From: Verrucomicrobiia bacterium
GTDB lineage: Bacteria; Verrucomicrobiota; Verrucomicrobiia; Verrucomicrobiales; DEV007
Length of the DNA: 64,000 nt
Reading direction: 5' to 3'
Assembly: GCA_030427505.1 (NCBI GenBank)
Contig: JAUICH010000001.1
Location: forward strand, 248,001 to 312,000
Made by a program: the position numbers and the translations under genes. The notes beneath the pieces are model-generated. The model did not search any database and was not told where the DNA came from. It saw nothing but the letters and a program-made list of their open reading frames with translations. Shown one piece after another: positions 10,484 through 10,565 of the stretch (its first letter is position 1; every line of letters begins with the position of its first letter).

Positions 10484-10565
10484 TGCTCGAGGGGGGACTC
10501 GAACCCCCACGGGTTGCCCCACAGGATCCTTAATCCTGCGCGTCTACCAGTTCCGCCACCCGAGC
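10484..10565 (-). tRNA. tRNA-Leu, anticodon AAG
   Basis: The reverse strand folds as a type II tRNA of 82 nt. The 7-bp acceptor stem pairs GCTCGGG with CTCGAGC (one G-T pair). The D arm reads GGCGGAACTGGTAGAC. The anticodon stem is CAGGA/TCCTG with loop TTAAGGA, giving anticodon A34-A35-G36 and G37. The variable arm is leucine-like (TGGGGCAACCCG) and the T arm is GGGGG-TTCGAGT-CCCCC. The discriminator is A and CCA is not encoded. Leucine identity is supported by the long variable arm, A73 and G37. An A at position 34 is unusual for bacterial tRNA-Leu, where GAG normally reads CUU/CUC. Confidence 0.93.

Follow-up and report, generated by a model that had tools for sequence, protein, structure and literature searches.

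Introduction

In most bacteria the tRNA-Leu gene for the codons CUU and CUC has a G at position 34. A different arrangement has been described for the Lactobacillales (Streptococcus, Lactobacillaceae) and for Oenococcus oeni, in which tRNA-Leu(AAG) replaces tRNA-Leu(GAG), TadA is present and the leucine tRNA is a second A34 tRNA beside tRNA-Arg(ACG) (PMC13249217, PMC11472039). Editing of tRNA-Leu(AAG) was first confirmed in O. oeni, and the tRNA of S. pyogenes is fully edited; in vitro the edit is made by the organism's own TadA but not by the E. coli enzyme, and the same report raises the question of how TadA came to take on another tRNA (PMC11472039). A report from 2026 also describes edited tRNA-Leu(AAG) in Streptococcus and places nearly all tRNA-Leu(AAG) genes of bacteria in Bacilli, naming in addition Mycoplasma and Prochlorococcus (PMC13249217). 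In the light of these two papers the statement in the first-pass annotation of our locus, that A34 is normally limited to tRNA-Arg(ACG) in bacteria, is out of date.

Here we analyse a stretch of 64,000 nucleotides (the window) from a bacterium of the order Verrucomicrobiales (contig JAUICH010000001.1, positions 248,001 to 312,000), which carries a tRNA-Leu(AAG) gene. The source genome shares the three traits of the Lactobacillales and O. oeni given above. It differs from the Lactobacillales in that the lineage is another one, the third codon positions are GC-rich and no clear codon shift is seen; moreover, at the position of E. coli R152 Streptococcus has Arg in its TadA row and the AAG members of the order have Ala.

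The tRNA gene and its neighbours

ARAGORN calls two tRNA genes in the window, one of which is the tRNA-Leu gene of Table 1, with the anticodon aag at gene position 35; the Rfam tRNA score of this gene, 53.2 bits, compares with a gathering score of 29. ARAGORN agrees with the earlier reading as a tRNA-Leu with an AAG anticodon and assigns no other anticodon. The loop, given as TTAAGGA with A34-A35-G36, is indeed read as UUAAGGA on the minus strand, where the anticodon runs from 10531 to 10529 and U33, G37 and A38 are found at 10532, 10528 and 10527. From the span of 10484–10565 proposed without a strand, the end is retained, whereas ARAGORN places the start at 10483 and the gene on the minus strand. 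When folded alone the gene is more stable than most shuffled versions (3 of 200 shuffles fold as well), and its minimum-energy fold is not the cloverleaf, which we take from ARAGORN and Rfam. The gene is intact according to both programs. It is not a chance match: 110 of the 131 genomes of the order carry this pattern, and among the AAG loci of a public collection that were tested individually with ARAGORN 58 of 59 are tRNA-Leu(aag).

Table 1. Features of the window at the tRNA-Leu(AAG) locus
Feature	Position in the window	Strand	Basis
Formyltetrahydrofolate deformylase-like gene, presumably purU, 286 aa, just downstream of the tRNA	9554..10414	-	ORF, start corrected; tblastn
tRNA-Leu gene, anticodon AAG, class II, 83 nt, CCA not encoded	10483..10565	-	ARAGORN; Rfam RF00005, 53.2 bits; sequence
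Anticodon arm, standard positions 27-43, CAGGA-UUAAGGA-UCCUG, with A31-U39 pair and A38	10522..10538	-	sequence; comparison with GAG, UAG and CAG genes of relatives
Anticodon A34-A35-G36	10529..10531	-	ARAGORN; sequence
Gene of a small Cys-rich protein, CxxCxxCC-type, 116 aa	10664..11014	-	ORF; tblastn

The downstream gene, which we take to be purU from its family, was found by tblastn 3′ of the tRNA and on the same strand at 7 of 21 AAG loci of relatives (six from the window's own family f1, one from family f4). It was found at none of 11 GAG loci, five of which are from the order (three from family f3 and two from genus g4), within stretches of 0.2 to 2.7 kb a side; the flanks read at the relatives' loci are short and some end at contig ends. 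The gene of the Cys-rich protein, which had no match in an NCBIfam search, accompanies the tRNA at 5 of these 21 AAG loci, each from family f1 (tblastn). In another genome (G028, locus L388) two copies of tRNA-Leu(AAG) are located about 0.8 kb apart.

The tRNA set and the TadA of the source genome

The assembly of the source genome (G000) has 6.41 Mb in 56 contigs and is 96.5% complete. The Rfam tRNA search of this assembly returned 60 matches, with 150 of 185 candidates scored. According to ARAGORN the leucine anticodons are UAA, CAA, UAG and the AAG of the window, the arginine anticodons include ACG and CCG, and the only A34 tRNA genes called are Leu(AAG) and Arg(ACG). The first-pass annotation had pointed to the absence of tRNA-Leu(GAG) from the genome as a check of its proposal, and neither Rfam nor ARAGORN finds such a gene at the stated completeness and number of scored candidates; a looser pattern with one mismatch allowed finds neither GAG nor CAG. 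A long-arm tRNA-Leu(CAG), present in most of the relatives examined, was likewise not found in the source genome, which is perhaps due to an assembly gap.

It might be argued that the AAG gene is silent or redundant, tRNA-Leu(GAG) being hidden in an unassembled or unscored stretch, as the assembly and the scoring are incomplete and the long-arm tRNA-Leu(CAG) is missing as well. We regard this as highly improbable, since the order's 110 AAG genomes, 12 single-contig assemblies among them, gave no GAG match, and since the gene is intact according to both programs and part of the family shares its neighbours.

A short Leu(CAG)-like gene is present in an odd tRNA array of the source genome. This dense array has 16 ARAGORN tRNA genes (L034:6382-9446, corresponding to G000:C51, about 118.4–121.4 kb), in many of which the T loop is unusual (GGTGCAA, GTGCGA) and the anticodon odd, for example, GCG for Arg, and it is like the arrays of mobile elements or phages.

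Two proteins of the source genome match the deaminase family PF14437. The first is encoded at G000:C6:200208-200732, 47 kb from the window, and has 175 amino acids; it passes the NCBIfam model NF008113 with 162.8 bits (cut-off 150) and matches solved TadA structures, with an E value of 2.3e-46 for S. aureus TadA (2b3j). Its translation has the sequences HAEML and PCPMC, which we take to be the HAE and PCxxC zinc motifs of TadA. The second, a 386-residue frame on contig C51, is taken for RibD from its size, and the genome has one clear TadA.

Distribution of the two anticodons and use of leucine codons

With a better-fitted pattern 125 of the 131 genomes of the order were matched: 110 have AAG, 15 have GAG, none has both and six gave neither. 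AAG and GAG exclude each other in the order. GAG is confined to family f3 (13 genomes) and to genus g4 of the window's own family (two genomes); a third g4 genome, G019, has no match to the tRNA-Leu pattern. TadA was found in 126 of the 131 genomes. At the level of the class, 48 of 286 genomes match the AAG pattern, 147 the GAG pattern and 92 neither, with G422 as the single overlap. The AAG genomes of the class comprise 40 of the order (the source genome included), seven of family f7 and G422, which we do not count as a carrier of both anticodons, as ARAGORN recognizes no tRNA in its AAG pattern match (L248). Of 387 genomes of the phylum, 253 match a pattern that admits both anticodons, and among the matches listed all are GAG, from genomes of other classes.

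The codon usage of the window was derived from 46 mechanically picked, non-overlapping long open reading frames with 18,381 codons. CUC accounts for 23.5% and CUU for 11.4% of the leucine codons, so that something must read CUC. A shift of leucine codon usage toward CUU and CUC in AAG genomes is not supported: in a comparison of the window and 10 AAG genomes (20 kb per genome) with eight GAG genomes (20 or 40 kb per genome), the ratio CUC/(CUC+CUU) showed no consistent difference. The steady use of CUC without a GAG tRNA speaks for inosine at position 34; CUC might also be read by tRNA-Leu(UAG).

The anticodon arm of tRNA-Leu(AAG)

The acceptor stem and the T arm of the AAG genes of the order are close to those of the GAG genes of f3 and g4, whereas the anticodon arm differs. 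Among the matches listed, the arm endings are GA-YUAAGGA-UC for AAG and G(U/C)-UUGAGGG-GC for GAG. A mere exchange of G34 for A can hence be discarded as the sole change in the order. The arm of tRNA-Arg(ACG) of the source genome reads GA-CUACGGA-UC, and over positions 30–40 the Leu(AAG) arm differs from it only at position 35 and, where it has a U as in the gene of the window, also at position 32. Of 118 AAG arms in the genome_contigs set, 102 have A38 and 80 have the A31-U39 pair; A38 occurs in none of 19 GAG genes read from the phylum (13 G, 6 U). On the other hand, tRNA-Leu(UAG) genes have A38 and the A31-U39 pair in 10 of 11 cases each, so the AAG arm need not be shaped by TadA; a copy of the tRNA-Leu(UAG) arm with one further change would give the same arm.

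Outside the order the arms look different. In family f7 three of the four AAG genes read have G38, and in a Puniceicoccales record with a genome of 0.9 Mb (L083:6514-6597) the AAG arm is identical to the GAG arm of family f9 except for A34, with G38 kept. To judge from these arms, f7 and the Puniceicoccales record would fit switches separate from that of the order, and the latter switch is possibly very recent.

Covariation of TadA residue 165 with the anticodon

We aligned the TadA proteins of 67 genomes of the order and eight GAG outgroup rows over 175 columns. The anticodon was found for 64 of the 67 (51 AAG, 13 GAG); three rows without a tRNA match, G345 and G661 (AAG) and G019 (GAG), were labelled by their relatives, are excluded from this count and have Ala, Ala and Arg at position 165, respectively. 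Column 165 is Ala in all 51 AAG rows and Arg (12) or Lys (1) in all 13 GAG rows of the order, and it is the only one of the 175 columns without overlap between the two groups. All eight outgroup rows have another residue than Ala (five Arg, two Gln, one Lys), and Ala was not found in any of 26 GAG-type rows of the phylum, where G019 was assigned by its genus. The next-best column is 168, which is Lys or Arg in 43 of 51 AAG rows and in none of the 13 GAG rows.

An ungapped alignment by the FF motif places residue 165 of the source protein at R152 of E. coli TadA, 166 at R153 and 168 at E155, the E. coli numbering being fitted to the residues named in PMC10586758. This review suggests that the pocket for C35 in the E. 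coli enzyme is narrowed by R26 and R152, which may contact C35, and states that a structure of E. coli TadA bound to tRNA is needed to confirm their role (PMC10586758). Column 165 was picked from the alignment before the review was considered, and it gains weight from being one of two residues named independently for the base-35 pocket. The order's enzymes belong by sequence to the same family as the TadA proteins of E. coli and S. aureus that act on tRNA-Arg(ACG): they share the HAE and PCxxC motifs and the Arg adjacent to the covarying site. At the site itself, however, E. coli has Arg and S. aureus Leu, unlike the Ala of the order's AAG enzymes.

Taken alone, column 165 could be a clade mark. 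Random splits of the rows gave a zero-overlap column in 0 of 1000 trials with the 53/14 labels and again in 0 of 1000 with the 51/13 rows. As control groupings with the 53/14 labels, family-level groups gave zero to three such columns and five unions of groups that do not form clades gave none. In a TadA tree calculated without the C-terminal helix there are four AAG/GAG label changes (three to four in bootstraps, one of them forced by the starred branches) and four changes of residue 165; the pairs of label and residue in which the residue goes the same way amount to one independent pair on the starred branches and four on all branches. The tree and the AU tests include the three rows labelled by their relatives. 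AU tests on the short TadA alignment do not reject a single clade of the order's GAG rows (p 0.382), a single clade of its AAG rows (p 0.226) or a clade of family f1 together with g4 (p 0.242). As single clades are not rejected, the coincidence of label and residue may rest on very few independent events, and relatedness limits the weight of column 165. Although g4 is classed in family f1, its TadA groups with two f3 rows (98/85), and its GAG gene is f3-like in sequence; both observations would fit a joint transfer.

Bacteria with tRNA-Leu(AAG) do not as a rule have Ala at the R152 site. All four TadA rows of the AAG family f7, from the same class, have Lys there, and of the best PF14437 matches from named AAG genomes 28 of 30 do not have Ala. 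The two rows with Ala are both from Verrucomicrobiales (Luteolibacter and one Akkermansiaceae record), and four rows have Arg (Streptococcus, two Synergistota and one actinobacterial row). The other AAG lineages must have found other ways to accept this tRNA, or need none.

It is therefore well possible, if somewhat short of an even bet, that TadA accepts tRNA-Leu(AAG) in the order while Ala at the R152 site is a mark of the lineage without any role, as the AU tests reject neither single clade, family groupings yield zero-overlap columns as well and AAG genomes outside the order do without this Ala. What this explanation leaves to coincidence is that the sole discriminating column is one of the two residues in print for the base-35 pocket, that base 35 is where the Leu arm differs from the Arg arm and that the five non-clade unions gave no such column.

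AAG genes in other bacteria and the state of A34

In a collection of 84,980 species the AAG pattern is found at at least 119 loci, from which the 59 individually tested loci mentioned above were drawn; the one exception, L149, in which ARAGORN calls no tRNA, was rejected and left out of the loop counts. An ARAGORN script run on 119 loci gave 116 tRNA-Leu(aag) genes. Among the matches listed, the loci carry about 17 phylum-level record names, and the titles include Verrucomicrobiota, Bacillota (with Mycoplasmopsis), Cyanobacteria, Fermentibacteria, Nitrospirales, Patescibacteria, Planctomycetota, Sumerlaeia, Actinobacteria, Cloacimonadota, Deltaproteobacteria and Myxococcales, Hydrogenedentota, Synergistota, Micavibrio, Caldiserica, Seleniivibrio and Acidobacteria; many of these records are metagenome bins and single names may be wrong. 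For instance, the AAG gene at L099:5138-5222, titled Bifidobacterium breve (1.0 Mb genome), differs little from the gene of an Acidimicrobiaceae bin, and its title may be wrong. Records titled Akkermansiaceae, Roseibacillus and Luteolibacter have AAG genes that resemble those of the order.

In 39 named AAG genomes a pattern that admits both anticodons matched only AAG and no GAG. A PF14437 protein is present in 35 of 38 named AAG genomes, a count that leaves out G597, whose title Bifidobacterium breve we doubt; it was not found in Mycoplasmopsis agalactiae and in two bins (Pirellulaceae, Opitutales). The best PF14437 match of a Candidatus Actinomarina record (L329) reads EPDPMC instead of EPCPMC, with Asp for one expected Cys ligand.

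The absence of a TadA match in M. agalactiae is expected from PMC3711424, which describes Group III Mollicutes without tadA. This organism has tRNA-Leu(AAG) like the source genome, in which, by contrast, TadA is present, and it indicates that editing is not required everywhere. One could suppose the same here, namely that A34 stays unmodified, that the tRNA reads CUU and, less well, CUC, and that CUC is partly read by tRNA-Leu(UAG); in Salmonella and E. coli, mutant A34 tRNAs are reported to read codons that end in C (PMC3711424). This explanation is unlikely to hold for our genome: it has a TadA, residue 165 of the enzyme varies together with AAG in the order, the window has twice as many CUC as CUU codons, and S. 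pyogenes and O. oeni edit their AAG tRNAs (PMC11472039). Between editing by TadA and toleration of an unmodified A34, which the first-pass annotation had left side by side, we favour editing, since the TadA residue that varies with AAG and GAG in the order is one that has been linked in print to the pocket for base 35.

Discussion

We consider it very probable that a working tRNA-Leu(AAG), its A34 converted to inosine by TadA, replaces tRNA-Leu(GAG) in this organism and that changes of the anticodon arm and of TadA accompany it across the order. TadA would deaminate A34 of tRNA-Leu(AAG), and the resulting I34 tRNA would read CUU and CUC, could read CUA and would take over from tRNA-Leu(GAG). 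The inosine itself we infer from the comparison of sequences. The switch in the order would have three parts: the change of G34 to A in tRNA-Leu, a rebuilt anticodon arm with A31-U39 and A38 that comes near to the substrate arm of TadA in tRNA-Arg(ACG), and the replacement of Arg or Lys by Ala at the R152 site, a change that could make room in the pocket for A35 in place of C35. We also infer a causal role of residue 165 and the order and direction of these events. More tentatively, we suggest that a natural change at the R152 site, a reversal of the switch in g4 by uptake of a GAG tRNA together with an Arg-type TadA and the acceptance of A35 by other residues in other lineages go together, a combination that as a whole is rather doubtful.

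The same region of the enzyme has been altered in the laboratory. In the base editor TadA8e laboratory evolution changed the positions aligned with 165 and 168 of the source protein (R152P, E155V; PMC10586758), and these positions are the two most discriminating TadA columns in the order. TadA8e was, however, selected for single-stranded DNA and acquired Pro and Val, whereas the AAG members of the order have Ala and Lys.

Editing of tRNA-Leu(AAG) is already known from Lactobacillales; the lineage and the covariation with TadA appear to be new. In the open-licence literature we found no paper with tRNA-Leu(AAG), TadA or inosine in Verrucomicrobia or Akkermansia by title or start of the abstract, and the main text of PMC13249217 does not mention either group. 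The presence of AAG in most of the order (110 of 131 genomes examined) and under about 17 phylum names contrasts with the near-confinement to Bacilli stated there. The split between Ala and Arg at one residue makes the question of how TadA adapted to a second tRNA directly testable, and since the same helix was changed in TadA base editors (PMC10586758) it may also be of interest to those who engineer them.
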